NCBI GenBank assembly: GCA_021786845.1
Contig: JAJYMO010000093.1
Coordinates: 32,061-67,471 of the forward strand
Direction: 5' to 3'
Source of the DNA: Pseudomonadota bacterium
GTDB lineage: Bacteria > Pseudomonadota > Gammaproteobacteria > Burkholderiales > Sulfuriferulaceae
DNA: 35,411 nt
In this document: piece by piece, positions 1 to 31,572 of the stretch
How the letters are laid out: each line of letters opens with the position of its first letter
Position numbering within the stretch: the first letter of the stretch is position 1
The notes under the pieces: generated by a model
Told to the model about the DNA's origin: nothing
The model's database searches: none
Seen by the model: only the letters and a program-made list of their open reading frames with translations
Position numbers and translations under genes: made by a program

Positions 1-998
1 GCAAAAAAATCTTCTACTGTGACAGGCATCCGCCCGATTAACACATCACGCAAACAGCTTTCCAAATCCATCAGTGTGCGGCGCGGACTGATAAACACAT
101 CGCCACTGAACCACACTTGCCGCAATCGTTGTTGCGGCATGTCATAAGCCACATTCACCCGCAGCGTTCCACCGGCAAATTTACGCTGCGCGGTCACCGT
201 GGGACGGTCTGTCGCTGGCTTGCTCACCCCGTACACCCAATCCGGGTGGTCAATTTCCTTCAGAGCCACCTCATACAGGCTCATTTCCGCAGCATTCAAT
301 TCTCCTGCTTGCAAGGAAACACCAAAGGCATCCGCCAAAGCCTTGCTCAGCGTGGTGATGATCACTGCCCGTTCGGGCACCACAGCCAGCAGCGCGGCCA
401 AACTGGTCACACGATCACGCGCTGAAGCAATCGCCTTATCCGCCAGTTTTTCCGCTGGGATACGCAACACACGCAGCATTTTTTCCACATCAAAACGCAT
501 GAGTAATGTGCCTTGATACATCAGCGCTTCGCCATCGAACGCACCGCCAGTACCCGACAATTTACGCCCTTCCACTTCAATGTCGTTACGCGGGCGAAAT
601 TGGGCATTGACGCCCAGTTGTTGCAAGCCTGCAGCGGCGGCGGTACAAATCTTCCCAGCAATCTGACTCATTTCAGCCAGACCCAACGCGCGCCTGTCCA
701 CATACAATTCCCACCCCAACTGGTCGGAATCCATATAAATGGCACCGCCACCCGTAATGCGGCGCTGCACCGTTACGCCGTTCGTCGCACAATAGTCCAG
801 ATCCAGTTCTTGCTCTGCGCTTTGATGAAAACCCAGCAGTGCCGATGGCTCAAAGCCCAAAAAACGAATGGTATTCGGCGCCACATCACTTTGTCTGGCT
901 TCTAGCAGAGCGCGATTCAAAGCCATATTTTCAGCTGCGCGACGCACACCGGTATCAAGCAAACGCCAAACAGGAGGTAAATGGGCGGTCACAGTCAA
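1..998 (-). CDS. Lipoate-protein ligase of the sHdr-associated type (sLpl(AB)-like), partial at left edge
   Basis: About 332 codons are visible and the 3' end lies outside the window. The protein has the LplA/LplB cofactor-ligase fold signature: RRITGGG (about residues 79-85) and PRNDIEVEGRKLSGTGGAF, whose lysine (about residue 146) is the expected catalytic one. Family role: it activates lipoate or octanoate with ATP and transfers it to a lysine of an acceptor protein. The neighbouring lbpA genes point to LbpA as the substrate, as known for sHdr-linked ligases. No ATG is suitable because the first one falls inside the conserved ENMALNRALLE helix. The start is TTG at 998 or GTG at 992, both directly after the upstream radical-SAM stop, so translational coupling is likely. 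Which of the known sulfur-oxidiser ligase subtypes it is cannot be settled here. Confidence 0.88.
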   Translation of the reverse strand, partial: MTVTAHLPPVWRLLDTGVRRAAENMALNRALLEARQSDVAPNTIRFLGFEPSALLGFHQSAEQELDLDYCATNGVTVQRRITGGGAIYMDSDQLGWELYVDRRALGLAEMSQIAGKICTAAAAGLQQLGVNAQFRPRNDIEVEGRKLSGTGGAFDGEALMYQGTLLMRFDVEKMLRVLRIPAEKLADKAIASARDRVTSLAALLAVVPERAVIITTLSKALADAFGVSLQAGELNAAEMSLYEVALKEIDHPDWVYGVSKPATDRPTVTAQRKFAGGTLRVNVAYDMPQQRLRQVWFSGDVFISPRRTLMDLESCLRDVLIGRMPVTVEDFF

Positions 999-999
999 T

Positions 1000-2169
1000 T
1001 CAGCCGCAACAACCGCCAGCTGTTTCAGCGGACTCTGTCACCACCCGGATGCCGGCCAGACCAGTCGTGGCATGGTGATGCTGAGTACGCTCATGCGCAA
1101 TCACGCGCTCAATGTCCACGGCTAACCCGGCATCTTCCGTTTCAATGGCCATCACTTCATCGCCGATGGCGATTGAACAGCACGCTGGCGTCACACGTAC
1201 TTCACGATTCAGTTTGACAGCAAGTTCCACCATGCCGTCTGTGGGGTGCGCCAAACCATTCAAGCCAGCCATTACTGCATAGCTGTCAATCTCAGCTTTC
1301 ACCCGACCAGGTGGGCGAGCACACCCCAACAACAAGGGAATATCTGGCAATGCTTTGCGTGCGTCCATAAAAAAACGCCCCACTTCAACAGAGTTAGGCG
1401 TCACAAAAGGACGGTTTTCTGAGGCATAAAAAGGCATGACCACGACCAGCACCACCGCTTGTGGCATATGACGCTGGATCATTTCCAGCGCATTCCATTC
1501 GCCCAGCAACTGACCATAATGCAAACCAATCACGATGTGGGGAACCACCTTAAGCTGTGTCGAAACCAGGTATTCAAGCGTCTTCTCAAAATCATCCACA
1601 GTACGGCGCAGGTGATAGACTTGGGTGATCGTGTCTTGCGAGCCGATCACATCCATCATCGCGCTGTCGATGCCGCAATCTTCCATGCGGCGCGCAATGT
1701 CCATGTCCACCAAAGCGGTGTGCATGGCAATTTTGAATTGGGGAAAGGTGTCTTTAATGCGGCGTATCACCGGATAAAAGGCATCATATTCCACTTCATT
1801 ACGGTAATTTGATCCACCAGTCAGCAACATGCCCTGCGCACCCACGCCGATATGTTCATTCACTGCCGCCCACAGTGCTTCAGGCGTTCTCACAGCGTGC
1901 ATGGGTTCAAGAATTTTGGCCTTGCAATGATCACACTGGAGCTTGCAATCCCCACCTGTGATAGACATTGCAGGCCATGCACTCTTGCCGCAACCGCTAA
2001 TTTCCGACGTGGTGTAAGCTTTGAACGTGGGCGTGTAGAAGTTAACTTTTCCGATTCGCTCACCTTGCAAGCCGGCATAGTGATGCTGCATTTCACTCAT
2101 TAAAGCAGCATCCAGCTGAATACCATCCAGCGGTTCAACACCGTCAACAATTTCTTGCCAATTATTCAT
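1000..2169 (-). CDS. Radical SAM lipoyl synthase component (LipS1/LipS2 type)
   Basis: This 389-residue radical SAM protein carries C75-x3-C79-x2-C82 (CKLQCDHC), the ligand set for the SAM-binding [4Fe-4S] cluster, followed by KAKILEPM. It is rich in other cysteines: SGCGK (C60), LLLGCARPPG, TPACCSIA and a C-terminal GGCCG. These could hold an auxiliary cluster used as sulfur donor, which is inference. In sHdr organisms a LipS1/LipS2 pair inserts sulfur into octanoyl-LbpA. I cannot tell from sequence alone which of the two this is. The other member is not in the window and may lie left of the edge. The start is ATG 2169, because AGGT sits 5 nt upstream in GAGGTTAGGTGAGC; GTG 2175 is an alternative. 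It lies downstream of lbpA and touches the ligase gene. Confidence 0.82.
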   Translation of the reverse strand: MNNWQEIVDGVEPLDGIQLDAALMSEMQHHYAGLQGERIGKVNFYTPTFKAYTTSEISGCGKSAWPAMSITGGDCKLQCDHCKAKILEPMHAVRTPEALWAAVNEHIGVGAQGMLLTGGSNYRNEVEYDAFYPVIRRIKDTFPQFKIAMHTALVDMDIARRMEDCGIDSAMMDVIGSQDTITQVYHLRRTVDDFEKTLEYLVSTQLKVVPHIVIGLHYGQLLGEWNALEMIQRHMPQAVVLVVVMPFYASENRPFVTPNSVEVGRFFMDARKALPDIPLLLGCARPPGRVKAEIDSYAVMAGLNGLAHPTDGMVELAVKLNREVRVTPACCSIAIGDEVMAIETEDAGLAVDIERVIAHERTQHHHATTGLAGIRVVTESAETAGGCCG

Positions 2170-2215
2170 GCTCACCTAACCTCATTTGAAACAGGGTTAC
2201 TGAAAACCATAAAAC

Positions 2216-2242
2216 AATAGGGGCGATAACATCACCCCTATT
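2216..2242 (-). terminator. Hairpin between lbpA and the radical SAM gene
   Basis: AATAGGGG (2216-2223) and CCCCTATT (2235-2242) form a perfect 8-bp stem with an 11-nt loop. On the transcribed minus strand the stem is followed by GTTTTATGGTTTTC, a broken U-rich tract. It could be a partial terminator or an mRNA-processing or stabilising hairpin that sets lbpA expression above that of the lipoylation enzymes. The symmetry is seen in the sequence; the role is inference. Confidence 0.5.
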
Positions 2243-2326
2243 TTGCGCTCGTTCATATGTTGCTGTGCCGTCAGGTTAAACCACGATAACCCAACGCACA
2301 CGCCATTGAAACTAAAAAATCAGTCA

Positions 2327-2764
2327 TTAGCAACCCGCAAAGCCATCTGCGGTCATTTTTGCATCAAAGCCTGTCGCCACTGCAGCGCCTGTGATCAAGC
2401 TACCGGATTGACCGTCCCAATCGGTAGGTTTCATTTTCACCAGCCAACCGCTGCCATAAGGGTCTGCATTAATCGTACCTGGTTTTGCTGCCACATCAGG
2501 GTTAATGGCAATCACTTCACCAGTCACCGGCGCTTTAACGGGGCCGACCCACTTACCTGACTCCACTGTACTCACCGATTTGTTTTGCTCAATTTCCTTA
2601 CCGGCTTTTTTGGGGGTATAAGACACAATTTCACCTGCCAGAGAGCAAGCGTAAGCCGTCATACCTACCGTCAGCGTGCCATCGGCCTCGCGGCGTGCCC
2701 ACACATTGTTGTCAATGTTATAAAAAAGATCATCAGGTAGGTTGCAGCCACGTACTGTTGCCAT
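2327..2764 (-). CDS. lbpA: Lipoate-binding protein LbpA (GcvH-like), copy nearest the lipoylation genes
   Basis: This 145-residue protein has a GcvH/lipoyl-domain fold. The lipoyl-lysine hairpin is TVESGKWVGPV with K71, and the following KAPVTGEVIAINPD resembles glycine-cleavage H proteins. No other glycine-cleavage gene is nearby and the gene sits in an sHdr cluster, so it is called LbpA, the lipoylated partner of sHdr, rather than GcvH. Cysteines at C7, C40 and the very C-terminal C145 are unusual for GcvH and might take part in sulfur chemistry (inference). Start ATG 2764 has a strong ribosome site, GGAGAA, 4 nt upstream. A 106-nt gap separates it from the upstream DsrE-like gene, and a hairpin follows its stop. 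Confidence 0.9.
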   Translation of the reverse strand: MATVRGCNLPDDLFYNIDNNVWARREADGTLTVGMTAYACSLAGEIVSYTPKKAGKEIEQNKSVSTVESGKWVGPVKAPVTGEVIAINPDVAAKPGTINADPYGSGWLVKMKPTDWDGQSGSLITGAAVATGFDAKMTADGFAGC

Positions 2765-2870
2765 ATTCTTCTCCTCAAATAAATAATTACTTCAACCAAT
2801 GGTATACGACGTATATGTGTGGAAAATGTTCGCGATAGACACAGTCACTTTCCAATACTCACACAGCTTA

Positions 2871-3266
2871 TCAAAAATACATCGACTTGTCACAAGCCAA
2901 AACCAAATCAGCCATTTTGCTGGCATTTGCAATTTCGTCCACTTCGTCTATCACGTCGCTTACATCCAGGTCATAACCCGGCATCGCCGGTTTGCATAAA
3001 TACAATTTTGCGCCAGCCTGTTTTGCATCACGAATAAACTCAATAATGGTTTTCCCACCCTGCATCGCAGCCAAGCCTTCCGCAACACCTGTTTGTGCAA
3101 GCTTCACACCTTCCATCGTTAAGAAAATGCTCACATCGGCATCCATGGATGCCAATACCGCACTGATATAAAATGGGGTTGCACAACGGTGTGGGGAAGA
3201 CGGACCGCTGGTCATCACAACCACCACACTTTTTTCTTCATTATCCAGATAATGCGAATCAGACAT
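2871..3266 (-). CDS. Small DsrE/DsrF-family protein between the two lbpA genes
   Basis: This 131-residue protein has the DsrE/DsrF-like alpha/beta pattern: a first strand VVVVMTSGPSSPHRCATPFYISAVLAS, then DADVSIFLTMEGVKLAQTG and a C-terminal MADLVLACDKSMYF. The three cysteines are C28, C91 (in YLCKPAMPGYDL) and C125. DsrE-family proteins move sulfane sulfur on conserved cysteines in the cytoplasm. Here that role is inferred from the family and the neighbours. It differs clearly from the larger DsrE protein at 9745-10254. Its ATG overlaps the stop of the upstream lbpA gene (ATGA), so the two are probably made together. Confidence 0.75.
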   Translation of the reverse strand: MSDSHYLDNEEKSVVVVMTSGPSSPHRCATPFYISAVLASMDADVSIFLTMEGVKLAQTGVAEGLAAMQGGKTIIEFIRDAKQAGAKLYLCKPAMPGYDLDVSDVIDEVDEIANASKMADLVLACDKSMYF

Positions 3267-3712
3267 CAGCGCGCTCCCCGTTCACAATGGATGTCTTCCC
3301 GGCGTGTGCGCTCACAATACCCTTGCTTCGCAACATCACCCGTTACCAGCACGGACAAAGCCTGCGCCACCGATTCAGTTGGTCTAACCCGTGCAATCCA
3401 TGCTTCATAGGGTTCAATGTTGAGGAGATTTGGATCATCCAGCACATCCAGGTTGGCCTCTTCAATCACGCAGTCAAAAATATTGGGGACAGGACCTGCC
3501 CACTTCCCACTTTCTATCGTGGCAACAGGCTTACCAACGGGACGGATCGTACCAGGTCTGCGTACACGCACATGAAGAATCTTGCCTGCCACGGTTTGGG
3601 ATATGTCTGTCATCCCGACCGTTAAGCTGCCATCTTCTTCCTGACGCACCCATATCTGGTACTGATCATCATAATAAAGTTCAGCGCGGAACTCACAGCC
3701 ATTGCATTCCAT
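3266..3712 (-). CDS. lbpA: Lipoate-binding protein LbpA (GcvH-like), copy next to hdrB2
   Basis: This 148-residue second lipoyl-domain protein has the lipoylation site TIESGKWAGPV at K70. It is clearly divergent from the copy at 2327-2764, although both keep LTVGMT and ESGKW. It has its own N-terminal CNGC pair (C3, C6), a further Cys in the FDCVIEE stretch, and C-terminal cysteines (GYC, IHC). It directly follows hdrB2 (18-nt gap) and its stop overlaps the start of the DsrE-like gene. sHdr gene clusters commonly carry lbpA next to hdrB2, so this may be the main partner. The division of labour between the two copies is unknown. No strong ribosome site is visible before ATG 3712. Confidence 0.88.
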   Translation of the reverse strand: MECNGCEFRAELYYDDQYQIWVRQEEDGSLTVGMTDISQTVAGKILHVRVRRPGTIRPVGKPVATIESGKWAGPVPNIFDCVIEEANLDVLDDPNLLNIEPYEAWIARVRPTESVAQALSVLVTGDVAKQGYCERTRREDIHCERGAR

Positions 3713-3730
3713 CTTCGGTCAGGCGAACTG

Positions 3731-4642
3731 TTAAACCACGCCTTTGTCGTGCAGAAAATCAAGCGAATCGCTCACATTTTCATGCACACCCAACTTACGT
3801 GCTGACAAACCCATCGCCAAGCCCAACAATTGGGTAAAATACAAAATCTTCACCTTGGTCTTGATGCCAAATTCAGTTTCGGCACGCACCTGGTGCATTT
3901 CCAAACCGGAATGACACGTGGGGCACTCTGTGGCGATCACTTCCGCACCGGCATCTTCCGCCGCCTGAATAATATTCAAGACAAGTTGTGTAGAAGTGTC
4001 CGCATCCGATAACGTGTGCGCGCCACCACAGCAGGCTGTCTTCAAGGGGAAATCTACATTGACCGCGCCTGCAGCACCCAGCAAATCATCCATAAAATGG
4101 GGTTTATAGCTGGACTCGCTGCCGGGTCCCTGGTCTTTTTCCGGGAAAATTTGACGTGGACGGGTGTACATGCAACCATAATAATTAGCTATTTTAATGC
4201 CATTCAAGCTCTTACTTATTTTTTGCTTAATGCCTTCGACACCCAGGTCTTCCATCAACCACTCAAGCAGATGCACTGTGCGCACATCGCCTTTGTAGAC
4301 AGGGTCGTCGGATTTTTTGGCCAAGCCCTGCAAGGTCACCAAAGATTCTTTGGATGTTGCCAACTCATATTCTGCTTTTTTAAGGTTATGATAACAACCG
4401 TTACATGGTGCCATCACTGTGTCGTAGCCCATTTGCTCGCTGGCAATCGCCATCACGCGCGCAGACATATAGGTTTGCAACATGGGATGAATATTCTTCA
4501 CTTCCATCGCACCACAACAGTTCCAGTCATGCACAGTTTCCATTTCCAGACCAAGGCTGGTCACCAGCGCACGGGTGGAACGATCATACGGACCGCCTGA
4601 ACCTTCCAGGGCACATCCGGGATAATAGGCAACTTTAGCCAT
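3731..4642 (-). CDS. hdrB2: sHdr complex subunit HdrB2 (two CCG domains)
   Basis: This 303-residue HdrB-type protein has two full cysteine-rich CCG domains: C10...C42-C43...C80-x2-C83 (YPGCALEG, NCCGAM, APCNGC) and C157...C204-C205...C240-x2-C243 (YYGCMYT, TACCGGAH, TECPTC). In methanogen HdrB these hold non-cubane [4Fe-4S] clusters that handle disulfide chemistry. In sulfur oxidisers HdrB2 is a core part of the cytoplasmic sHdr complex. Start ATG 4642 overlaps the end of hdrC2 by 8 nt, so translational coupling is likely. Confidence 0.93.
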   Translation of the reverse strand: MAKVAYYPGCALEGSGGPYDRSTRALVTSLGLEMETVHDWNCCGAMEVKNIHPMLQTYMSARVMAIASEQMGYDTVMAPCNGCYHNLKKAEYELATSKESLVTLQGLAKKSDDPVYKGDVRTVHLLEWLMEDLGVEGIKQKISKSLNGIKIANYYGCMYTRPRQIFPEKDQGPGSESSYKPHFMDDLLGAAGAVNVDFPLKTACCGGAHTLSDADTSTQLVLNIIQAAEDAGAEVIATECPTCHSGLEMHQVRAETEFGIKTKVKILYFTQLLGLAMGLSARKLGVHENVSDSLDFLHDKGVV

Positions 4643-5405
4643 GAGCCAACTCCTTTTGTTCTTTAATATACTGGCTCAGGACTTCACCTGTTCGGCCCCA
4701 AGATTTTGTTTTTGGTTTAAAAACCATTGACCACCCCATGTGCAAGGAATGCATGATGGGTGTACGTGCCAGGAATCTGAACACATGACCATGACGCAAT
4801 TCATTCCACTTATTCATGCGGGCGACAAATATACCCAACCAGCCATGCAAAGCCATTTCCTTGATATTCTGCTGACTGAGCTTATAAAAATTGCTCATGA
4901 CTTCAGAATCTTCAATTCGTCCCCTGACCAGACATTGACGAGCAAACTCTTCGTCAAACACAGTGGAATTCGATTTTGCTCCATGACCTTCCGCTTCTAT
5001 CCAATGTGCCAGTGCTTTCATCACACCTTCCGGACGAACATCTTTTGGACAAATATTGGTGCATTTGTTGCATGACACGCACTGCCAAATGATTTCCTTG
5101 TCCTTCAGAATTTCCTCTGTCAAACCCAAACGAGCCAGATAGATCCAGTAACGTGGATTAAAATCGGTATTTTGCGCGTACATTGTGCACGAGTTGGTGC
5201 ATGAACCGCATTGCCAGCAGCGATGGACATTCTCCGCACCACTGTACTGCTTGAGATGGCTTTCGAATCCGTCATCATAATCGCGCAAGGTACGCGGCAG
5301 GATCATGGTGTTCCAGTGACCTGAAACGTCTACCCCATCAACCACCAGGGAGTCACTGGTAATTAACCTGTCTGGATCGATCAGTGTTTTTTCATGAATC
5401 GCCAT
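4635..5405 (-). CDS. hdrC2: sHdr complex subunit HdrC2 (two [4Fe-4S] ferredoxin-type subunit)
   Basis: This 256-residue iron-sulfur protein has two CxxCxxCxxxC motifs: C63/C66/C69/C73 (CWQCGSCTNSC) and C109/C112/C115/C119 (CVSCNKCTNIC). The expected role is electron transfer between HdrB2 and the flavin subunit in the soluble sHdr complex. The C-terminal half is helical, with no cluster motif. Start ATG 5405 has AGGAGAA upstream. It overlaps hdrB2 by 8 nt and follows the 'hyp' gene after a 96-nt gap. Confidence 0.93.
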   Translation of the reverse strand: MAIHEKTLIDPDRLITSDSLVVDGVDVSGHWNTMILPRTLRDYDDGFESHLKQYSGAENVHRCWQCGSCTNSCTMYAQNTDFNPRYWIYLARLGLTEEILKDKEIIWQCVSCNKCTNICPKDVRPEGVMKALAHWIEAEGHGAKSNSTVFDEEFARQCLVRGRIEDSEVMSNFYKLSQQNIKEMALHGWLGIFVARMNKWNELRHGHVFRFLARTPIMHSLHMGWSMVFKPKTKSWGRTGEVLSQYIKEQKELAHG

Positions 5406-5501
5406 TACTTTCTTCTCCTAAATCACTTGTATTTCAACAGGAAATCACTAACCCTGTTATGCCTGAATGTTTACATCACGTATTAATTTTGCACCACCAG
5501 T

Positions 5502-6374
5502 TTAAATCGATGCATCCCGTTTAATTCTGGAAATACCTTCCCTGATGGGGGCATCAATACCCAGAAACTTGCGGATGTGGCTTGATGGATTGGTTCCTCG
5601 CCCAAAATCTGAACCCAGCATGCCTTCAGCCAAAGAACGAAAATACTCGGTGTACGCCTGAGCAAGTATTAAGTCCACCCAAAAATGGATGTCCTTGTAT
5701 ACCCCGTTCGCCGACACCTGCTCAGCCATCCAAACGCGAGCGCCTTCGTAAATGCCTGGACTGGTGCCTAACTTCACATCCGGCATGTGATCGTTACCAC
5801 GTATGAATTCACGCAAAGCGCCACTCACCGTGTTTTGATCCCACACCCACCGGCACATCAACGGATACCGTTCCGGCGCATTAAAATGCAACAACTCAGC
5901 TGCAAAATCAAGCGCCGCGCGCCTCGTTTTTTCAGCTTGTTTTCTCACTTCACGGTGTGCCGATTCATCTACGCTCACCAGCATTGAAAATGCATGCATC
6001 CGCTCTTCCAGAGGCGCCAAACCATAGATCAGTTCCCTCATTGCCAGGGCAACAGTCTCCATTCCATTCGAAATTAAATCCGAATATACGCGGCGACGGG
6101 CTGAAAAAACAGTTTCAAGCAATTCCTCCAAATCGGCCTGGTTGAGCGAATCAATTTTTTCTTTTGACAACGCCCGCACAAACAAGTCCTGTTTGGCTCG
6201 CAAAGCTGATAGATAAACCTCAACCCCACCATCGTCTTCAATGCTGTGTTGCAATGCAGACAATTTATGCTGGAATTGGGTCACATCCAGCGATACCGCC
6301 AGAGGTACCGGGATGATCAGCTCTGACTCGCCACCCCTGGCGGGCTGCTCAGGCTGCTTTTTGAACCAAAGCAT
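5502..6374 (-). CDS. Conserved sHdr-cluster protein of unknown function ('hyp')
   Basis: This 290-residue soluble, largely alpha-helical protein sits between hdrA and hdrC2, the position of the conserved 'hyp' gene in sHdr operons of other sulfur oxidisers. Visible features are an N-terminal short region (MLWFKKQPEQP), charged helical stretches and an aromatic C-terminal part (HFWVDLILAQAYTEYFRSL). It has one cysteine (PLMCRWVW), no iron-sulfur motif, no membrane segment and no nucleotide-binding signature. The ATG lies inside the hdrA 3' end and the two genes overlap by 26 nt in different frames, so production tied to HdrA is likely. The genomic position suggests an accessory or structural subunit; no biochemical role can be read from the sequence. 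Confidence 0.8.
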   Translation of the reverse strand: MLWFKKQPEQPARGGESELIIPVPLAVSLDVTQFQHKLSALQHSIEDDGGVEVYLSALRAKQDLFVRALSKEKIDSLNQADLEELLETVFSARRRVYSDLISNGMETVALAMRELIYGLAPLEERMHAFSMLVSVDESAHREVRKQAEKTRRAALDFAAELLHFNAPERYPLMCRWVWDQNTVSGALREFIRGNDHMPDVKLGTSPGIYEGARVWMAEQVSANGVYKDIHFWVDLILAQAYTEYFRSLAEGMLGSDFGRGTNPSSHIRKFLGIDAPIREGISRIKRDASI

Positions 6375-7398
6375 TCATTTCACCCACCGCACGCATCGCC
6401 ATCGCCAAACCATGTGAAATGCTGGTATCAATATCTTCCGGGCCCAATGCTGAACCGCCGACATAAATACCACGCCGGGTGCTGGAGAACGTGCTGGTAT
6501 ACTGCTCGCCACGGTCGATGAAGCCATGCTTCTCCAAACCGATACCAAATACTTTAGCTATATCCGGGTTCTCTTCATTGGGATCCATCCCCACGGCATG
6601 GACAACGATGTCCATAGGAATAACGATCGGGCGTTTGACCAGCGTATCCTCACCCTTGACTAACAGGCGGCCATCAGCCGATTTCGTAACTTCCGCGATA
6701 CGGGCTTTCACAAATTTGGTCTTGAATTCCTCTTGTGATTTCCAGTAAAACTTGTCTTCATACAAGCCGAAAGTACGAATATCCATGTAATAAATGAACA
6801 CTTCAGTCGTCGGTGACAGCTCTTTAATTTCCATTGCCAGATTTGTGGAAACGGTACAGCAAATTTTTGAACACCATTCACGACCAATCTGGCGATCACG
6901 CGAACCCACGCACAACAGGATTGCAACCCGTTCAGGTACGCGCCCATTTGATGGGCAGGCGATTTTCCCGGCACTGACCATTTGTTCCATCTGCGTGGTG
7001 GTCAGCACATCTTCATACGTACCAAAACCCCATTCAGGTTTATTGATCGAATCGAAATGCGTAAATCCAGTGCCCAGGATAATGCTGCCCACTTGTGCTG
7101 TTTGCCCATTCGACAGGGTGACTGTAAAATTACCCGACTCACCTTCCACTTTGGTCACACGTGTCGATTTGTGGATCGTGATATTCGGGTTATCTTCAAC
7201 ACGTTTCACCATGCGGCCAATCGCATCTTTTGCCCATTCACCAGACGGCACTAATTTCGCATAGCCGGAGATAATCGGCGCACCGCCCAGCACGGCTTCC
7301 TTTTCCACCAAAATAACTTTCTTTCCGATGGAGGCCACGCCGGCAGCAGCCGACAAACCTGTTGGTCCTGCGCCTACTACTAATACTGTATCAGTCAT
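6349..7398 (-). CDS. hdrA: sHdr complex subunit HdrA (FAD and [4Fe-4S] flavoprotein)
   Basis: This 349-residue FAD-dependent subunit has the dinucleotide motif GAGPTG at residues 9-14 and an acidic end-of-strand residue in VEKEAVLGG. A cysteine set C163...C176-x3-C180-C181 (LLCVGS, REWCSKICC) fits the single unusual [4Fe-4S] cluster described for sHdrA. It is much shorter than methanogen HdrA and lacks the extra ferredoxin domains, as expected for the sulfur-oxidising type. The role is the flavin electron hub between HdrC1/HdrB1 and HdrC2/HdrB2. ATG 7398 lies one base after the hdrB1 stop, and the 3' end overlaps the 'hyp' gene by 26 nt. Confidence 0.94.
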   Translation of the reverse strand: MTDTVLVVGAGPTGLSAAAGVASIGKKVILVEKEAVLGGAPIISGYAKLVPSGEWAKDAIGRMVKRVEDNPNITIHKSTRVTKVEGESGNFTVTLSNGQTAQVGSIILGTGFTHFDSINKPEWGFGTYEDVLTTTQMEQMVSAGKIACPSNGRVPERVAILLCVGSRDRQIGREWCSKICCTVSTNLAMEIKELSPTTEVFIYYMDIRTFGLYEDKFYWKSQEEFKTKFVKARIAEVTKSADGRLLVKGEDTLVKRPIVIPMDIVVHAVGMDPNEENPDIAKVFGIGLEKHGFIDRGEQYTSTFSSTRRGIYVGGSALGPEDIDTSISHGLAMAMRAVGEMNALVQKAA

Positions 7399-7399
7399 T

Positions 7400-8746
7400 T
7401 TACTTATGGCCTCCTAATGCCAGCTCGGGGTTATACAAATACTCAATATTTCCTGCTTCTACTTCTTTCAGATAGGATTCAAAGTTTTTCTTTGCGTCCG
7501 TCCAGGAAATACCCATTTTCTCGACCAGATCTTCGCAAGGGGAAGCATGCCACTGCAGTTGCACAATTTTGAACGGGTCGGCACCGCAAGCCAGCGCAGC
7601 ATACTGTACGTCCGCCACGATAGGCACAGAGAAGTTGTTTTCGTGCGCTTTGCCAATCCACTGGTTTTTGTCCATGGTCGTGATACAACCGGTGTCAATG
7701 CCCAGCAGCACGTCCGCATTGGCTTCTTCACGGACCACACGGATTTTACGATCCATGGTGAAAGAACGGGTGAATTCACGTTCGGAAATAATGTGACGGA
7801 AACCGAAACCGCAACAATCGTACCACGTCGAATAATCGATCACTTGTGAACCCAAAGCCAGGGCAATCGAAGTACCCACAGCAGTCCGATTGCCGCCTAA
7901 CACGTCAGGATCGTAAATCGCATCTTCATGCACCATCTTGTAATAGTGGCATGCTGCGTGGGCGGTCACACGAATATTTGATACATCAATAGTTTGCAAT
8001 TCTGAAGCGATGCGTTGACGCATCACATGCACCCATTCGGAATAATGAATAATTTCTTCAGGGATCACCAGCTTGCCATCGACCAACCGGCCTAACTTAC
8101 CCAGAATTTTGGTCACACGCTCGCGCAGCTCGGCTGACTCAACCAGATATTTGCGAATTTCCTTGTAGTTACCAAAAGATGTCCCGCAATGCACAAGAGG
8201 GAAAAAATGCCCTGCTTCAAAACCATGTTGCTTGCCTGAAATATACGCCTGATGGAAGTTGCGCATAAACACTGCGGCCAACGATTCCACATTGCCAATG
8301 CCTGATCCATGGTAGTTCCACGCCGTACAGGAAGTCTGGTCTGTTTCATCCAGATAGTCGGTCCCCGGCACAAAACCAAATTTATTCATGAACCACATGA
8401 TTGATGTTGGATAACCTGGGATGTTTCCGCACTGACCGCACGATTTGTGATGCCACAACTTGATCGACGGAATTTTTTTAGTCCAGCCAAACAAGGTCTG
8501 CACTTCGATTGGCTGATGCAAATCGGTAATGCGGTGCACAATAATCTGGCCGTCTTTTTCCAGCTCCCACATGTGATCACGGATGTCATCCATGCGCTCA
8601 CCCAAATCAATAGTGCGCTTGTCTACGTGCTTACGGACCCACTCTGTAGCGCGCGTGGCCTCATCACCTGACAAACTCGTTTGCTGGAAAAACGAGCCGT
8701 GACCGGCGATACCCGAATTTTCACTGCCTTGTACGATTTCGTTCAT
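7400..8746 (-). CDS. hdrB1: sHdr complex subunit HdrB1 (CCG-domain protein, atypical cysteine set)
   Basis: This 448-residue HdrB-like protein has an N-terminal half with HHKSCGQCGN (C103, C106) and SCTAW (C140), plus C187. The C-terminal half has a CCG-like pattern: C266 (AACHYYK), C311-C312 (DCCGFGFRH) and C354 (DTGCITTMDK). The last element lacks the second cysteine of the normal CxxC, so only one recognisable and incomplete CCG domain is present, against two in HdrB2. This asymmetry between B1 and B2 is typical of sHdr. Start ATG 8746 has GGAGAA upstream. It is one base from hdrA and 45 nt after hdrC1. Confidence 0.92.
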   Translation of the reverse strand: MNEIVQGSENSGIAGHGSFFQQTSLSGDEATRATEWVRKHVDKRTIDLGERMDDIRDHMWELEKDGQIIVHRITDLHQPIEVQTLFGWTKKIPSIKLWHHKSCGQCGNIPGYPTSIMWFMNKFGFVPGTDYLDETDQTSCTAWNYHGSGIGNVESLAAVFMRNFHQAYISGKQHGFEAGHFFPLVHCGTSFGNYKEIRKYLVESAELRERVTKILGKLGRLVDGKLVIPEEIIHYSEWVHVMRQRIASELQTIDVSNIRVTAHAACHYYKMVHEDAIYDPDVLGGNRTAVGTSIALALGSQVIDYSTWYDCCGFGFRHIISEREFTRSFTMDRKIRVVREEANADVLLGIDTGCITTMDKNQWIGKAHENNFSVPIVADVQYAALACGADPFKIVQLQWHASPCEDLVEKMGISWTDAKKNFESYLKEVEAGNIEYLYNPELALGGHK

Positions 8747-8791
8747 GATATTTCTCCTGAAATATACTGCTCAACACCATGGTTAATGGTG

Positions 8792-9475
8792 TCAGTCTTT
8801 TTCCTGCTCTTCTAACCATTCATCGTATTCTTCACGCTTTTCGTCGATGAAATCTTCGATCACATCAAACAAATTTTCATCCATGGCTTCAAGGGAGGAC
8901 AGCACGCCTGTCATTTCCCAAATGGTGTACATCTCTACCGACGTTTTCAATGAAACTTCCCAGGCGGTGTCGGTGGTTTGCAATGTCCGCACAGGAATTG
9001 CTTTACGCAAAGTCTTGAGATCGCCTTCAACCTTCTGAATATTAGGGCCCCAGTCGGGAAAGTGGTCCGGCTGAATCATGTCTGGCGACAACTGGTTACC
9101 TGTGGTAATCAATTTCAGCATCACACGACCAAATGGCCGCAACACATCCTTTGCCGATTGCATGCCATGCTTGATTGATACTTCGCGCATGATCATCACC
9201 AACCCGCCAGGTGAGTTTTTAAATGGGCAACGCGCCGCACAGGTCATGCACTGCGCACAGGCCCAAATTTTCTCTTGCATCGCGTCATAAATTTGCTCAA
9301 TGTTTTCTGTCCAAAGCAATTGAACAATTTCTCTCGGACTGTAATCATAAAATTGCGCGGATGGACAAGTTGCGGTACAGACGCCGCAATTTAAACAACC
9401 ATTCAATTCGTGATCGTAGCGAAAGTCGCCGCGAATATCATCGTATATCTCGCGCATCTCAGCGTACGTTGCCAT
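8792..9475 (-). CDS. hdrC1: sHdr complex subunit HdrC1 (two [4Fe-4S] ferredoxin-type subunit)
   Basis: This 227-residue subunit has two cluster motifs: C27/C30/C33/C37 (CLNCGVCTATC) and C73/C76/C79/C83 (CAQCMTCAARC). The C-terminus is strongly acidic (EDFIDEKREEYDEWLEEQEKD). It is an electron-carrying subunit of the sHdr complex. ATG 9475 is preceded by AGAGGTGG. It is the first hdr gene, separated from dsrE by a 269-nt gap with its own promoter-like sequence, a dyad and two hairpins. Confidence 0.93.
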   Translation of the reverse strand: MATYAEMREIYDDIRGDFRYDHELNGCLNCGVCTATCPSAQFYDYSPREIVQLLWTENIEQIYDAMQEKIWACAQCMTCAARCPFKNSPGGLVMIMREVSIKHGMQSAKDVLRPFGRVMLKLITTGNQLSPDMIQPDHFPDWGPNIQKVEGDLKTLRKAIPVRTLQTTDTAWEVSLKTSVEMYTIWEMTGVLSSLEAMDENLFDVIEDFIDEKREEYDEWLEEQEKD

Positions 9476-9556
9476 TATCCACCTCTTGGTTAACTAAGCT
9501 TAAAACCTAAGTCAGCTTGCCCGGTCAATTCAGCTCAAGCAACACCAGGTTTGTGT

Positions 9557-9585
9557 TATATACATACCCTGCCGGCCTTGGTCGA
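9557..9585 (-). promoter_or_regulatory. Candidate promoter for hdrC1
   Basis: On the minus strand TCGACC (9580-9585) and TATATA (9557-9562) are spaced by 17 nt, matching 4 of 6 bases of each sigma-70 box. The site lies about 80 nt before hdrC1. It would allow the hdr genes to be transcribed apart from rhd-tusA-dsrE. Inferred from consensus only. Confidence 0.35.
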
Positions 9586-9588
9586 CAG

Positions 9589-9606
9589 AATTTGCAATTG
9601 CGAATT
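9589..9606. promoter_or_regulatory. 18-bp dyad upstream of the hdrC1 promoter, candidate operator
   Basis: AATTTGCAATTGCGAATT is palindromic except for one base pair, with a perfect GCAATTGC core. It abuts the candidate -35 box of hdrC1. ArsR-type repressors (sHdrR, SoxR) control sHdr genes in other bacteria, so an operator is plausible. No regulator gene is in the window to support this. Confidence 0.4.
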
Positions 9607-9674
9607 TGAAACCGATTGCACGCGCAACCGGATATTTTGGCAGTTAGGTCGATAGACTAAACTGTTGAGGCATT

Positions 9675-9699
9675 GTTCCCGAAATTTTGTTTCGGGAAC
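9675..9699. repeat. Perfect 10-bp hairpin in the dsrE-hdrC1 gap
   Basis: GTTCCCGAAA (9675-9684) and TTTCGGGAAC (9690-9699) form a perfect 10-bp stem with a 5-nt loop. No T-run follows on either strand, so it is not a classic terminator. With the next hairpin it may block 3' exonuclease decay of rhd-tusA-dsrE mRNA or pause polymerase. Confidence 0.55.
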
Positions 9700-9710
9700 C
9701 TTTCGCCCAC

Positions 9711-9730
9711 AAGGTGCGAAAACGCACCTT
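9711..9730. repeat. Perfect 8-bp hairpin just after dsrE
   Basis: AAGGTGCG (9711-9718), loop AAAA, CGCACCTT (9723-9730). On the minus strand it is the first structure after the dsrE stop (14 nt) and has a TTTT loop. No U-tract follows. It stands in tandem with the 9675-9699 hairpin, 11 nt away. Confidence 0.55.
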
Positions 9731-9744
9731 TACACTTACAAAAA

Positions 9745-10254
9745 TTACATGTACAAGCAAATATCAGCGTCGCCAGCAAATTCAAACATTTTGGCTGCGC
9801 CGGCATACTCTAAACCATCAATAAAATCATCATGCGAAAAACCAAACAATTCGACGGTCATCTGGCAAGCGATAAACTTGACATCCGCTTCCTGGCAAAA
9901 CATGCGCATATTCTCAACCGATTCCACCCCATTGTTTGCAATGGTTTTTTTCATCAAAGCTGTTGCCAGAGATTCGTATCCCGGCACAATCGACTGAATT
10001 GCATTAGGAATATTCCAGTTAATACCGCGAAACCATTTTGGTCCGAATGGCATTTTCATCGGCATTCCAGGATTACCCAACGGGCTCACTTTTAATCCGG
10101 ACACATCTTTACGCAGTAACTGAAGACCATAAAAAGTGAAAAAAATCTGCACCTCATAGTCCAACGCGGCTGCAGTGGATGCGAGAATAAAGGGTGGATA
10201 CGCCCAGTCTAAAGTGCCTTTTGTCGCAATGATTGCCAGTTTCTTTTGACTCAA
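9745..10254 (-). CDS. dsrE2: DsrE2/DsrE3-type sulfur-trafficking protein
   Basis: This 169-residue protein is of the larger DsrE kind (COG2210-like). It has an N-terminal strand KLAIIATKG, a hydrophobic stretch FILASTAAALDYEVQIFFTFYGLQLL, then C120, C130 in the typical ACQMTVELFGF motif, EYAGAAKM and C166 near the end. Family role: sulfurtransferase relaying sulfane sulfur with TusA and rhodanese in the cytoplasm. The gene order rhd-tusA-dsrE2 is the well-known arrangement in sulfur oxidisers and guided the symbol. A DsrE3-type assignment is possible. The start is TTG 10254, with AAGGAG about 7 nt upstream. Two hairpins follow the stop. Confidence 0.85.
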   Translation of the reverse strand: MSQKKLAIIATKGTLDWAYPPFILASTAAALDYEVQIFFTFYGLQLLRKDVSGLKVSPLGNPGMPMKMPFGPKWFRGINWNIPNAIQSIVPGYESLATALMKKTIANNGVESVENMRMFCQEADVKFIACQMTVELFGFSHDDFIDGLEYAGAAKMFEFAGDADICLYM

Positions 10255-10334
10255 TGTTATCTCCTTTAGTTCCTTAATTATTTCTTCTGTTTGAGTTCCA
10301 GCGTTTTTCTACAAGAAATTTGGATGATGCCTGA

Positions 10335-10562
10335 TTATTTGCTCTTGATAAAGAAGGTAAATTCCGTACCAGCTTGTGCTGAAGACAGCAACTCATTGCC
10401 GGTCTGCTTTGCAAAAGCCTCGAAATCTTTAATTGCACCAGGATCAGTCGCCACAATTTTAAGCACTTGACCTGTTGTGAGCTCATTCAACGCTTTTTTG
10501 GCGCGCAAAATAGGTAAAGGGCAATTCAAACCACGCGCATCCAATTCTTTATCAAAATTCAT
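10335..10562 (-). CDS. tusA: Sulfur carrier protein TusA
   Basis: This 75-residue TusA-family protein has the CPxP motif LDARGLNCPLPILRAKKAL (active Cys14), the residue that carries sulfur as a persulfide. It ends in the typical beta-rich ...TEFTFFIKSK. In sulfur oxidisers it delivers sulfur to the oxidation machinery. ATG 10562 has GGAG upstream. It lies between rhodanese and dsrE2. Confidence 0.95.
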   Translation of the reverse strand: MNFDKELDARGLNCPLPILRAKKALNELTTGQVLKIVATDPGAIKDFEAFAKQTGNELLSSAQAGTEFTFFIKSK

Positions 10563-10639
10563 TATCTCACTCCATTAAAATTAAATTGTCAAACTGTTAA
10601 TAAAAAATCCGTTAGTCAGGCTGGGCTTTGCGACAAACT

Positions 10640-10960
10640 TTATATACTCACAAGCGGCTTCCCCGCTCTCATCCAGCCCATTATTCCGCCCTGAAGATTA
10701 TACACATCATTCAAGCCTTTGGAAGCAACAAAGGCGCAGGCCTGCGCAGAACGCCCGCCTGACTGACAATAAAAAACAATAGTCCTGTCTTTAGGCAGTT
10801 CATCCACCTTCAACGGCAGTAAATGCAGAGGGATATGCACTCCACCACTAATCCCTCCCCTTGCTACTTCGGCCTCAGTACGAACATCGATCAAAAGGCA
10901 ACCCGGACCTTCTTGCAACTGTTCCAAACCCAGCACATCCACTTCCTTGAATCCGAACAT
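10640..10960 (-). CDS. Single-domain rhodanese
   Basis: A rhodanese domain of about 106 residues. DVRTEAEVARGGISGGVHIP is followed by the active-site loop FYCQSGGRSAQA, where the Cys forms the persulfide, and the protein ends in YNLQGGIMGWMRAGKPL. It probably mobilises sulfane sulfur for TusA. The chosen start, ATG 10960 (MFGFKEVDV), fits the family. An in-frame TTG at 10975 is possible but has AAGG directly abutting it. It is the first gene of the cluster and is preceded by a promoter and dyad. Confidence 0.9.
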   Translation of the reverse strand: MFGFKEVDVLGLEQLQEGPGCLLIDVRTEAEVARGGISGGVHIPLHLLPLKVDELPKDRTIVFYCQSGGRSAQACAFVASKGLNDVYNLQGGIMGWMRAGKPLVSI

Positions 10961-10990
10961 ATCGCGCTCAAACAACCTTTAAAGAATGCT

Positions 10991-11018
10991 AATATACCAA
11001 AATATAAACGTACTGCAA
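10991..11018 (-). promoter_or_regulatory. Candidate promoter of the rhd-tusA-dsrE-hdr cluster
   Basis: On the minus strand TTGCAG (11013-11018) and TATATT (10991-10996) are spaced by 16 nt. The -10 matches 5 of 6 and the -35 only 3 of 6 bases of the consensus. It sits in a very AT-rich stretch about 15-30 nt before the rhodanese start, implying a short leader. The weak -35 suggests activation or a regulated promoter. Confidence 0.45.
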
Positions 11019-11029
11019 ATATTTTTGCA
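11014..11029. promoter_or_regulatory. Dyad overlapping the rhd -35 box, candidate repressor operator
   Basis: TGCAAA (11014-11019), a 4-nt spacer and TTTGCA (11024-11029) form a perfect inverted repeat on top of the candidate -35 box, where a repressor would block polymerase. It shares TTTGCA with the dyad before hdrC1. Binding by an ArsR-type sHdrR-like repressor is a guess from other sHdr systems. Confidence 0.4.
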
Positions 11030-11437
11030 ATATTTATTTAAAAATACTTGCTTCGAGCGCCGAGACCTTGCGCACAGCGACCCAAACCAGCCCAGCATCC
11101 ACCTGCATTGAAACTTAATCTAAAAATCTGTTTAAACCCTGCTGGCAACCCATATCTCAACAAGAGGCCACAGACTTAATTCAAATGCGCGACGATTGAT
11201 ATATTCCATAATAAAGTTTAGACTTACGGCGTGGTGGTGTGTTGTGTGGATTTGTCCCATAATCAATCCCCGTCTGCATCTGGGGCATGAGCTGCATGTA
11301 GCGTACAAAACGGAAACGTATTATCCGTGTATTGTTAAGACATGGTTACATGTTTTGACGCGTTTGCGTTGCACATGCCGGGTTTTACCATAAACTTTGT
11401 ATTCAATTCAAAGCACTATCTATGAGGGCGCGTCATT
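11030..11437. other. Intergenic region between divergent rhd and the 11438 gene
   Basis: About 400 nt with no convincing gene, tRNA or known RNA. The first part is AT-rich and belongs to the rhd control region. Short inverted repeats such as CCCC-N10-GGGG near 11266 and ACATG-GTTA-CATGT near 11340 are too weak to interpret. The plus-strand gene at 11438 must have its promoter here, but no good -35/-10 pair stands out. Confidence 0.5.
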
Positions 11438-11743
11438 ATGCAACAAGACAATTTCAAAGAGAATACCCGTTACACCATTACATGGCGGAATGCCAGCGGT
11501 AAGTTGCAACCCGCAAACATTTATATTTATAAATTATTTGCTTCAACCATGATTGCCAGAATGACGGACAAAGGTGGCCTTTTGTATAAAATCAGTTACG
11601 ATGATGTCACAAAAATTGTGAAAGAAGTTGCCGTCACGGCTGAAAACCAATACCGCATTCCGGCTGCCATCCTTGACGAAAAAATGTGGAAAGACCGTAC
11701 GGTGATGGAGCGTTATTCCAGCTCACCTCAAATGGGTAAGTAA
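11438..11743 (+). CDS. Small soluble protein of unknown function
   Basis: A 101-residue protein I do not recognise. It is soluble, with mixed charge and many aromatic residues: RYTITWRNASGKLQPANIYIYKLFASTMIARMTDKGGLLYKISYDDVTKIV. There is no cysteine, signal peptide or membrane segment. The pattern of short strands and a helix suggests a compact alpha/beta fold. The ribosome site GAGGGCG before ATG 11438 and its stand-alone position support a real gene. It lies 37 nt before the CorC-type gene and could share its transcript. Confidence 0.7.
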   Translation: MQQDNFKENTRYTITWRNASGKLQPANIYIYKLFASTMIARMTDKGGLLYKISYDDVTKIVKEVAVTAENQYRIPAAILDEKMWKDRTVMERYSSSPQMGK

Positions 11744-11779
11744 GTGCCGTTATTAACCAGCACACGTTTTTGACGTGCC

Positions 11780-13123
11780 ATGAGCAAATTGATTCATCCT
11801 GCTTTAGTACACTTGCCGACACCCTTGGCACACCATTCAAATTTAAACGACATTCCGATTAGCGCATTGCTGGTCGGTCTGTTTATCCTTCTGCTACTTT
11901 CAGCCTTTTTTTCTGTTTCTGAAACCAGCATGATGGCTATCAACCGTTATCGCTTGCGCCATCTTGCGAAACAAGGCCACCCGGGTGCGCAACGCACGAC
12001 CAGATTACTGGCTCACACAGACAAATTGCTGGGCGTCATTTTGCTGGGCAATAACCTCATCAATGCAGCCTCCGCCACACTGGTCACACTGATCGCTATC
12101 CGCCTGTTCGGCAACAGTGAATGGGTTCTGGGTATTGCCACACTGTCGGTCACTTTTGCCATCCTGGTATTCAGCGAAATCACGCCAAAAGTCATTGGCG
12201 CAGCCTATCCCAATGAAATCGCTTATCCAGCCAGCCTGATTCTGCAACCGTTGCTGACCCTGGCTTATCCTATCGTTTGGTTTGTCAATCTTTTTGTACA
12301 AGGCATATTGCGCCTTATGCGTCTCAACCTCAAATCGAATGAGGATGAAAGTATATTGGGAATTGAAGAATTACGTATTTTAGTTCTCGAATCCGGAAAA
12401 ATGTTACCGGGCTCTCACAAACGCCTGCTGGTAAATCTGCTGGACCTTGAGAACAGCACTGTGGATGATATTATGACACCTCGGCATCAAATTGAAGCAA
12501 TTGACATTCAACAATCCGCCGAACTCATCACACGACAAATCATCAGTGGTCACCATACTCGCCTACCGCTTTATAATGGTCAACTGAATGACATCACGGG
12601 TATCGTTCATTTACGCGCATTAACCCGGGAACTGCATAATGCTTTCATCCAGCCAGAATTTTTGACTGCTCACGCCCAGTCAGCCTATTTCATTCCTTCA
12701 GGCACCCCTTTATTTACACAATTACGTCAATTTCAGGAAAGCCGGCAAAATTTGGGCCTGGTAGTGGATGAATACGGGGAATTGCTTGGCTTGATCACCA
12801 TGACCGACATTCTGGACGAAGTCATTGGTGAAATTGCGGCGGGCCCCCGTTCACTCACACCAGGTTACCTCCCACAAGAGGATGGCAGCTGGCTTATCGA
12901 AGGCAGCAACAGCATTCGCCATATTAACCGCCTCCTGGGTCTCGATTTGCCTGTATCCGGACCAAAAACACTCAATGGATTGATACTGGAACACCTGGAA
13001 GACATTCCCGAGATCGGTACCACCATTAAAATTGACGAATACCCCATTGAAATTATTCAAGTTCAGGAACGTTTGGTCAAAACCGCCCGGATTTTTCCGC
13101 GCCGTATGATATTGAAAAACTAA
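11780..13123 (+). CDS. HlyC/CorC-family transporter (CNNM/DUF21 plus CBS domains)
   Basis: A 447-residue membrane protein. About residues 25-200 are a DUF21/CNNM membrane domain: LLVGLFILLLLSAFFSVSETSMMAINRYRLRHLAKQG, further hydrophobic helices and the conserved FSEITPKVIGAAYPNEIAYP. About residues 220-345 are a CBS pair (TVDDIMTPRHQIEAID; LGLVVDEYGELLGLITMTDILDEVIGEI), followed by a C-terminal CorC/HlyC domain (DGSWLIEGSNSIRHINRLLGLDLP). The family is linked to magnesium or cobalt homeostasis. The first about 23 residues before NDIPISALL are unusual and no clear ribosome site precedes ATG 11780, so the true start may be further in. Confidence 0.9.
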   Translation: MSKLIHPALVHLPTPLAHHSNLNDIPISALLVGLFILLLLSAFFSVSETSMMAINRYRLRHLAKQGHPGAQRTTRLLAHTDKLLGVILLGNNLINAASATLVTLIAIRLFGNSEWVLGIATLSVTFAILVFSEITPKVIGAAYPNEIAYPASLILQPLLTLAYPIVWFVNLFVQGILRLMRLNLKSNEDESILGIEELRILVLESGKMLPGSHKRLLVNLLDLENSTVDDIMTPRHQIEAIDIQQSAELITRQIISGHHTRLPLYNGQLNDITGIVHLRALTRELHNAFIQPEFLTAHAQSAYFIPSGTPLFTQLRQFQESRQNLGLVVDEYGELLGLITMTDILDEVIGEIAAGPRSLTPGYLPQEDGSWLIEGSNSIRHINRLLGLDLPVSGPKTLNGLILEHLEDIPEIGTTIKIDEYPIEIIQVQERLVKTARIFPRRMILKN

Positions 13124-29111: not shown

Positions 29112-29783
29112 TCAAATCAAATCCCATTCCAAACATGAGCTGGCCTGTTCTACGTCAGACAGCCACGGCATCACGCCCAATAAAGGCACCATCAAAAGCG
29201 ATTGCAATATTGCCATATTTTCTGCGACAGCCTGCATGTCCGGATCAATCATGTTCGCCACCCAGGCGACCAAAGGCAAACCATCTTGACGTATCGCTCT
29301 GGCAGTCAACAAAGCGTGGTTGATACAACCCAGACGCATGCCCACCACTAACACCACAGGAAAATTGAGCGCACGCGCCAAATCAGCCATTGTTTCGGTC
29401 TCGCTGATGGGTGCATACCAACCTCCAGCGCCTTCTACCACCACCCTATCCGCCTGTTCGCGCAACGCAGCACAAGCGTCGGCGATCACTTTCAAATCAA
29501 TACAATGCCCAAGCTGTCGTGCAGCAATGTGGGGCGATAACGCCACCTCAAACCGGTACGGATTGCGCTGGGCCAAGGGTGCCTGCACCGTACTGGCCGC
29601 AGCAAGGACTTCCACATCTTCCCAGCAGGCTACGCCGTCGCGCATCACGGCACCGGACACCACGGGTTTCATGCCCACCACGCTGTGACCGCGTGCACCC
29701 CAACCGTGCAACAAAGCCGCCGCCACATGGGTTTTACCCACCCCGGTATCTGTTCCGGCAATAAAAAAACCATCCTGATTCAT
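29112..29783 (-). CDS. bioD: Dethiobiotin synthetase
   Basis: About 223 residues. The P-loop is GTDTGVGKT near residues 10-18, followed by GMKPVVSGA, VVEGAGGWYAPISETETMADLARAL and VVGMRLGCINHALLTARAI. It forms the ureido ring of dethiobiotin from diaminopelargonate, CO2 and ATP. I chose ATG 29783 because it gives the family N-terminus; a GTG at 29807 would add eight residues. It follows bioC after about 36 nt. Confidence 0.94.
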   Translation of the reverse strand: MNQDGFFIAGTDTGVGKTHVAAALLHGWGARGHSVVGMKPVVSGAVMRDGVACWEDVEVLAAASTVQAPLAQRNPYRFEVALSPHIAARQLGHCIDLKVIADACAALREQADRVVVEGAGGWYAPISETETMADLARALNFPVVLVVGMRLGCINHALLTARAIRQDGLPLVAWVANMIDPDMQAVAENMAILQSLLMVPLLGVMPWLSDVEQASSCLEWDLI

Positions 29784-29819
29784 TCCAGGGTCCCGTTCAT
29801 GAATCACTGTAGTATACAG

Positions 29820-30725: not shown

Positions 30726-30783
30726 AGGTTCCTCTCAATTTCGAAATACCCAAAAAAGACCTTTGTACGATGACTCCGCTTGC

Positions 30784-31539: not shown

Positions 31540-31572
31540 ACCAAGCCTCTGTTAATCAATGGCATGGCTAAG

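Follow-up and report, generated by a model that had tools for sequence, protein, structure and literature searches.

A well-preserved sHdr-LbpA sulfur-oxidation locus in a Sulfuriferula-type bacterium

Loci of the sHdr sulfur-oxidation system have been described in Sulfuriferula, Acidithiobacillus and Thioalkalivibrio. Here, we compare these systems with a locus at the left end of a stretch of 35,411 nucleotides, hereafter the window, from a Pseudomonadota bacterium of the family Sulfuriferulaceae (assembly GCA_021786845.1, contig JAJYMO010000093.1; C78:32061-67471 of source genome G000, which measures 2.19 Mb and is 98.6% complete). Statements on published systems are drawn from excerpts of the papers cited.

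Type I sHdr is defined by the presence of shdrC1B1AHC2B2 within one syntenic cluster, and its sHdrH is described as a protein of unknown function (PMC11582611). Group I loci and two types of lipoate-binding protein (LbpA) were defined in PMC6067878, where an LbpA is recognised by a conserved lipoylated lysine and one conserved cysteine near either end. Evidence for the block lipS1-slpl(AB)-lipT-lipS2 is given in PMC10332631. In Thioalkalivibrio sp. K90mix, TK90_0638-0644 comprise lbpA1 (0638), one further gene, lbpA2 (0640) and lipS1-slpl(AB)-lipT-lipS2 (0641-0644) (PMC6067878, PMC10332631). The order rhd-tusA-dsrE-hdr is reported for A. ferrooxidans (PMC2754497) and A. caldus (PMC6335251). 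Closer to the present organism, an hdr cluster (hdrCBAhyphdrCB) lies between conserved flanks in Sulfuriferula and other Sulfuricellaceae, co-occurs with dsr in S. multivorans TTN, and has its Hdr proteins detected in Sulfuriferula thiophila mst6 grown on thiosulfate (PMC6397845). S. thiophila itself is reported there to have no dsr genes. Similarly, hdrABC has been reported in four Sulfuriferula strains (PMC12285272).

The window locus follows these descriptions closely. It shares its genus and its hdr core with the Sulfuricellaceae cluster, and the excerpted text and legend of PMC6397845 give no difference between them. By locus tag, its order from lbpA1 to lipS2 is also that of K90mix, although that host differs in being a gammaproteobacterial alkaliphile. 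Thioalkalivibrio-labelled loci (L075, L076 and L079) carry a dsrE at the position of TK90_0639, with no dsrE2 found upstream. In the Acidithiobacillus cluster the upstream nine genes stand in the window's order, yet the proteins have lower identity to those of the window (55% for DsrE2 in the three loci where it was found, L041, L049 and L063).

We conclude that the window locus is almost certainly an sHdr-LbpA operon of type I (group I), and its host a sulfur oxidiser of the Sulfuriferula type. This reading follows from profile matches, the match of sHdrA to structure 6tjr, trees of LbpA and sHdrA, synteny, a LipT-like fragment and LipS2 beyond the window edge, and published experiments. Fourteen co-directional genes run as open frames along the minus strand from 10975 to 3, beginning with rhd and ending in a cut slpl(AB). 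Frames and Pfam/NCBIfam profiles give the order rhd-tusA-dsrE2-shdrC1-B1-A-H-C2-B2-lbpA1-dsrE-lbpA2-lipS1-sLpl(AB), with the following features:

10640-10975, minus: rhd, rhodanese-type sulfurtransferase; PF00581 70.5 bits; Cys70 conserved
10335-10562, minus: tusA, sulfur carrier; PF01206 86 bits; Cys14 conserved
9745-10254, minus: dsrE2, sulfur carrier; NF047629 251 bits, above cut-off 210
8792-9475, minus: shdrC1, ferredoxin-like subunit with two four-cysteine sets; HdrC profiles below cut-off; Fer4_8 41.5 bits; 8 conserved cysteines
7400-8746, minus: shdrB1, CCG-domain subunit; NF041780 110.5 bits, below cut-off 450; PF02754 22 bits, above cut-off 20.6
6349-7398, minus: shdrA, flavin/Fe-S subunit; best solved relative 6tjr, 458.5 bits; placed in the sHdrA/HdrA tree
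5502-6374, minus: shdrH (hyp), predicted all-helical; no Pfam/NCBIfam family at E 0.001; AlphaFold2 model pLDDT 87.2
4635-5405, minus: shdrC2, ferredoxin-like subunit; QmoC/HdrC profiles below cut-off; Fer4_8 43.8 bits; 8 conserved cysteines
3731-4642, minus: shdrB2, two CCG domains; PF02754 87.1 bits over 2 stretches; 10 conserved cysteines
3266-3712, minus: lbpA1, lipoate-binding protein (numbered by position); GCV_H 99.2 bits; 55-row clade
2871-3266, minus: dsrE-like gene between both lbpA genes; PF02635 58 bits; lbpA-dsrE-lbpA order in 58 of 80 loci
2327-2764, minus: lbpA2, lipoate-binding protein (numbered by position); GCV_H 121.9 bits; 61-row clade; Cys7 and Cys145 conserved
2216-2242, minus: hairpin of 12 pairs, then GTTTTATGG, between lbpA2 and lipS1; hairpin of similar score at this junction in 33 of 55 related loci
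1000-2175, minus: lipS1, radical SAM lipoyl synthase component; NF053742 196.3 bits, below cut-off 230; C77, C81 and C84 conserved
3-998, minus: slpl(AB), lipoate/octanoate:protein ligase, cut by the window edge; PF21948 151.6 bits; TIGR00545 149.3 bits, below cut-off 280

An earlier note on this DNA had listed this gene set and called its motifs intact, and both statements stand. Every listed gene is present on the minus strand as an open frame whose profiles match the named family. Of 15 proteins tested (13 from the window, LipS2 and the LipT fragment, with sHdrH left out), 14 have every cysteine that is kept in 95% or more of the aligned homologues, and the ESGKW motif is found in both LbpA. 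The sole protein short of a conserved cysteine is the LipT fragment, where the site precedes the readable part. Pfam and NCBIfam also agree with the names given in that note, except that its first DsrE is DsrE2. Its description of the locus as complete does not hold inside the window: the locus is real, but sLpl(AB) is cut at the left edge, and the LipT-like fragment and lipS2 lie outside the window.

Hdr-like subunits and lipoate-binding proteins

At the window locus, shdrC1B1AHC2B2 lie in one syntenic cluster, the arrangement that defines type I. The alternative is that these genes specify an ordinary disulfide reductase of the HdrABC type, and that the H-like proteins are GcvH of the glycine cleavage system. 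In its favour are the homology of the sequences to HdrABC and GcvH and the score of LbpA2 on the GcvH subfamily model NF002270 (118.4 bits, cut-off 117). Nevertheless, we consider it extremely improbable. The Hdr equivalog models fall far below their cut-offs (HdrA2 235 of 1100 bits, HdrB 160 of 345), and all sHdrB and sHdrC proteins score below the HdrB and HdrC profile cut-offs. Among solved structures, sHdrA matches 6tjr best, followed by HdrA of HdrABC complexes at no more than 190.2 bits. We take 6tjr to be the Hyphomicrobium denitrificans protein. In a tree of 35 chosen sHdrA and HdrA rows, all 10 HdrABC-type HdrA rows separate from sHdrA (100/100). Grouping with methanogen or other HdrABC types, which the earlier note had raised as a check, was therefore not found for sHdrA; the B and C subunits were assessed with profiles.

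The lipoyl proteins are similarly distinct. Both LbpA have conserved cysteines near either end in addition to the ESGKW lysine (C6 and C143 in LbpA1, C7 and C145 in LbpA2). Their placement comes from a tree of 147 GcvH-family proteins, in which bootstrap values are not fully settled and the K90mix LbpA references are not included. The lbpA1 product (3266-3712) belongs to a clade of 55 rows (99/92), the lbpA2 product (2327-2764) to another of 61 rows (97/95), and 22 GcvH rows, including the source genome's own GcvH, are set apart from LbpA (100/99). The clade names, LbpA1 and LbpA2, follow from where the first and second lbpA of Thioalkalivibrio-labelled loci fall, in the K90mix order of PMC6067878. 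The tree speaks against LbpA being GcvH, a reading that we reject, and the grouping with housekeeping GcvH that the earlier note had put forward as a second check does not occur.

Three proteins of the source genome exceed the GCV_H cut-off, namely the two LbpA and one GcvH on contig C59. The latter adjoins a frame read as glycine dehydrogenase, which further argues against a glycine cleavage role for the window proteins. LipB is encoded on contig C99 (202.5 bits), followed by a partial LipA (226.3 bits, below cut-off) in a 180-residue frame that is perhaps cut by the contig end. Gene content therefore suggests that the sLpl/LipS and LipB/LipA routes coexist in this genome, and such coexistence is usual (PMC6067878). 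The private lipoate supply proposed in the earlier note is consistent with this gene content, since GcvH, LipB and the partial LipA lie elsewhere in the genome; the specificity of the ligase would be that known from other organisms. Seven genus members (G001, G006, G007 and G011-G014) have a second LipA gene no more than about 2 kb away from a GcvH gene.

The sHdrH protein has zero conserved cysteines. Its AlphaFold2 model, built with 44 sequences, is all-helical (pLDDT 87.2, pTM 0.87). The protein had no PDB sequence match at E<=1, and the best PDB fold match of the model had an E value of 1.1, so that the predicted fold appears to be without a solved match. Residues invariant in all 44 sequences include D156, E160, H163, W176, W178, D179, R188, E189, D234, Y241 and Y244.

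Lipoylation genes beyond the window and gene order among relatives

Directly beyond sLpl(AB), 699 unread bases (N) adjoin the left edge of the window on the same contig. Past them lies the C-terminal portion of a flavoprotein of the type that includes geranylgeranyl reductases and lycopene cyclases, which scores 48.4 bits (below cut-off) in one profile set and 31.5 bits (above cut-off) in another, and which we call LipT by its position. The next gene encodes a LipS2-type radical SAM protein. This is the second LipS that the earlier note had proposed to seek left of position 1, and lipS1, slpl(AB), lipT and lipS2 are thus found together. Next to lipS2 comes a convergent PIN-domain gene (L007:15166-15582), 95% identical to its counterpart in the nearest relative, L013.

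Gene order was compared among 80 loci retrieved with sHdrA, the best 80 of 231, many of which begin or stop near a contig end. The unbroken order sHdrA-H-C2-B2-lbpA1-dsrE-lbpA2-lipS1-sLpl-lipT-lipS2 occurs in 49 of these, the lbpA1-dsrE-lbpA2 module in 58, and the full 16-gene order starting at rhd in 15; sHdrA stands alone in eight. The core order spans Sulfuriferula, other Betaproteobacteria, Acidithiobacillus, Thioalkalivibrio and Ectothiorhodospira. One locus, L047, had a match neither to lbpA1 nor to the middle dsrE. The earlier note had placed the novelty of the locus in its arrangement. We reject this view, since the order recurs across genera and is already published (PMC6067878, PMC10332631, PMC6397845).

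The loci with sHdrA but none of the other genes nearby are L053, L057, L059, L066, L067, L070, L071 and L088, seven of them labelled Acidithiobacillus. In L071, the lone sHdrA follows a frame read as a MerR-like regulator. L057 is labelled Phycisphaera, yet its sHdrA groups with Acidithiobacillus, perhaps through a binning error.

Genus distribution, Dsr and the weight of the evidence

The sHdrA of the window is 100% identical to that of an unclassified metagenome-assembled genome (MAG; L013) and 93-94% identical to those of three Sulfuriferula-labelled loci, including S. multivorans TTN. The source genome belongs to the genus of Sulfuriferula multivorans. Within this genus, sHdrA is found in 17 of 18 genomes, the source genome included, and is in two pieces in G004.

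Several observations weigh against our reading of the locus. LipS1 and LipS2 (194.6 bits, cut-off 270) both fall below their NCBIfam equivalog cut-offs, and the ligase lies under all of its own. The name LipT depends on position, and slpl(AB) lacks its last part and lipT its first part in the readable sequence. Relatives differ in gene order in the upstream half: in several betaproteobacterial MAGs (e.g. L027, L032, L033 and L052), rhd was not seen and dsrE2 is placed after lipS2, and dsrE2 was not seen in the Thioalkalivibrio-labelled loci. Within the genus, G015 (77% complete) has no sHdrA match, and that of G002 is a contig-end fragment of 54 residues. In the present organism, the system is predicted from its genes. 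With regard to the scores, the best NCBIfam match of LipS1 and of LipS2 is its own named family despite the shortfall, and in our judgement these cut-offs are too strict for the present branch.

The source genome also carries DsrA, so sHdr need not be its sole cytoplasmic route. DsrA and a DsrB-like neighbour lie at G000:C67:2129-4456, and DsrA reaches 501.8 bits against a cut-off of 392.85. DsrA exceeds the cut-off in 6 of the 18 genus genomes. The sHdr locus could be a relic or a side route, with the genome depending on Dsr to handle sulfane sulfur. We regard this as very unlikely. The sHdr locus has kept its open frames and conserved cysteines, genus members with sHdrA and without DsrA over cut-off exist (e.g. 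G011-G014), and in Sulfurirhabdus autotrophica, which has both sHdr and Dsr, both protein sets are present in the proteome (PMC6397845).

Hairpins, a third LbpA class and the role of the locus

Hairpins recur beside the lbpA module. They were surveyed within 120 bases after each stop codon, with the score (base pairs plus G-C pairs) set to at least 16; the loci are related, so the counts are not independent, and where genes abut these 120 bases are mostly coding. Hairpins are frequent at lbpA2-lipS1 (33/55 loci) and hdrB2-lbpA1 (25/56; the gap in the window is only 18 bases), intermediate at dsrE2-C1 (6/28) and tusA-dsrE2 (5/26), and rare at dsrE-lbpA2 (1/58), lbpA1-dsrE (0/57), H-C2 (1/62) and C1-B1 (0/47). 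At lbpA2-lipS1 they occur in 5 of 7 Sulfuriferula-like, 16 of 17 Acidithiobacillus-like, 6 of 7 Thioalkalivibrio/Ectothiorhodospira-like and 6 of 24 remaining loci. In the window, the 151-base region of this hairpin folds better than every one of 200 shuffled versions (z -3.09). A terminator scan of window positions 1-11800 was near chance (15 found, shuffle mean 13.6); the claim is based on position across loci. The hairpin at 2216-2242 is possibly a terminator, attenuator or RNA-stability element, and such hairpins may act as punctuation that sets lbpA expression apart. The excerpt of PMC2754497, the one paper searched, contained neither of two words for such structures.

Further scans of the window gave little. 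A sigma-70 promoter scan of positions 1-11800 had no signal (16 found, shuffle mean 16.4), no tRNA was found in the window, Rfam gave no match there at gathering thresholds, and PADLOC gave none for the three proteins run. A plasmid search with sHdrB2 (E<=1e-40) returned one distant record at 33% identity. Elsewhere in the window, frames on the minus strand at 29112-33746 read as bioB, bioF, bioH, bioC and bioD in a row, and a frame at 23355-24659 reads as a bioA-like gene.

The 147-protein tree holds a further clade of nine rows from eight genus genomes, sister to LbpA1 (99/91), for which we coined the label LbpA3. Its members keep the ESGKW lysine and a cysteine near both ends. Among 300 genomes of the order, 12 contain LbpA3 at 54% identity or more, at 13 places in all, six of these being among the nine genus genomes of that sample. 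At all 13 places (e.g. L177:4054-5708, L176:3896-5614 and L182-L193), it has on one side a 130-residue membrane protein (COX1 25.8 bits, under the cut-off of 34.8) and on the other a membrane protein fused to thioredoxin, in which a thioredoxin domain at the N-terminus (42 bits) is joined to a similar membrane part. Eleven of the 12 genomes also have LbpA1- and LbpA2-like matches; G115 has one further match only, at 37%. A DsrC-like gene follows LbpA3 in G008 only; elsewhere the flank searched covered about 1.5 kb. LbpA3 was not found in the source genome, nor in G013 or G017, and is therefore at most optional. Nothing on it appeared among the literature matches listed (10 of 662 and 8 of 22). 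We speculate, very tentatively, that Sulfuriferula and some other sHdr-bearing genomes of the order have a third LbpA class, unlinked to sHdr and set between COX1-like and thioredoxin-fused membrane proteins, which may connect the membrane with lipoyl chemistry, possibly by serving sHdr as an outlet for electrons.

By analogy with published work on Hyphomicrobium, Thioalkalivibrio and Thiorhodospira, from which the chemistry, the requirement for LbpA and the ligase specificity are taken, cytoplasmic persulfide sulfur would be handed along Rhd, TusA and the DsrE proteins to the sHdr complex (C1B1A-H-C2B2), which would oxidise it to sulfite. Lipoyl-LbpA1 and lipoyl-LbpA2 would serve as swinging arms carrying sulfur or electrons. 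The downstream enzymes may make the cofactor in place: sLpl(AB) would load the ESGKW lysine with octanoate or lipoate, both sulfurs would then be inserted by LipS2 and LipS1, and an accessory flavoprotein is the probable role of LipT. What the present sequences themselves show is the gene content and order, the clade membership of LbpA and sHdrA, and the conserved cysteines, alongside a separate GcvH and LipB. The locus is real, intact and ordinary, with genes and order already known, including in Sulfuriferula. As a finding it carries little weight, representing another well-preserved copy of the system in a genome that also holds DsrA.

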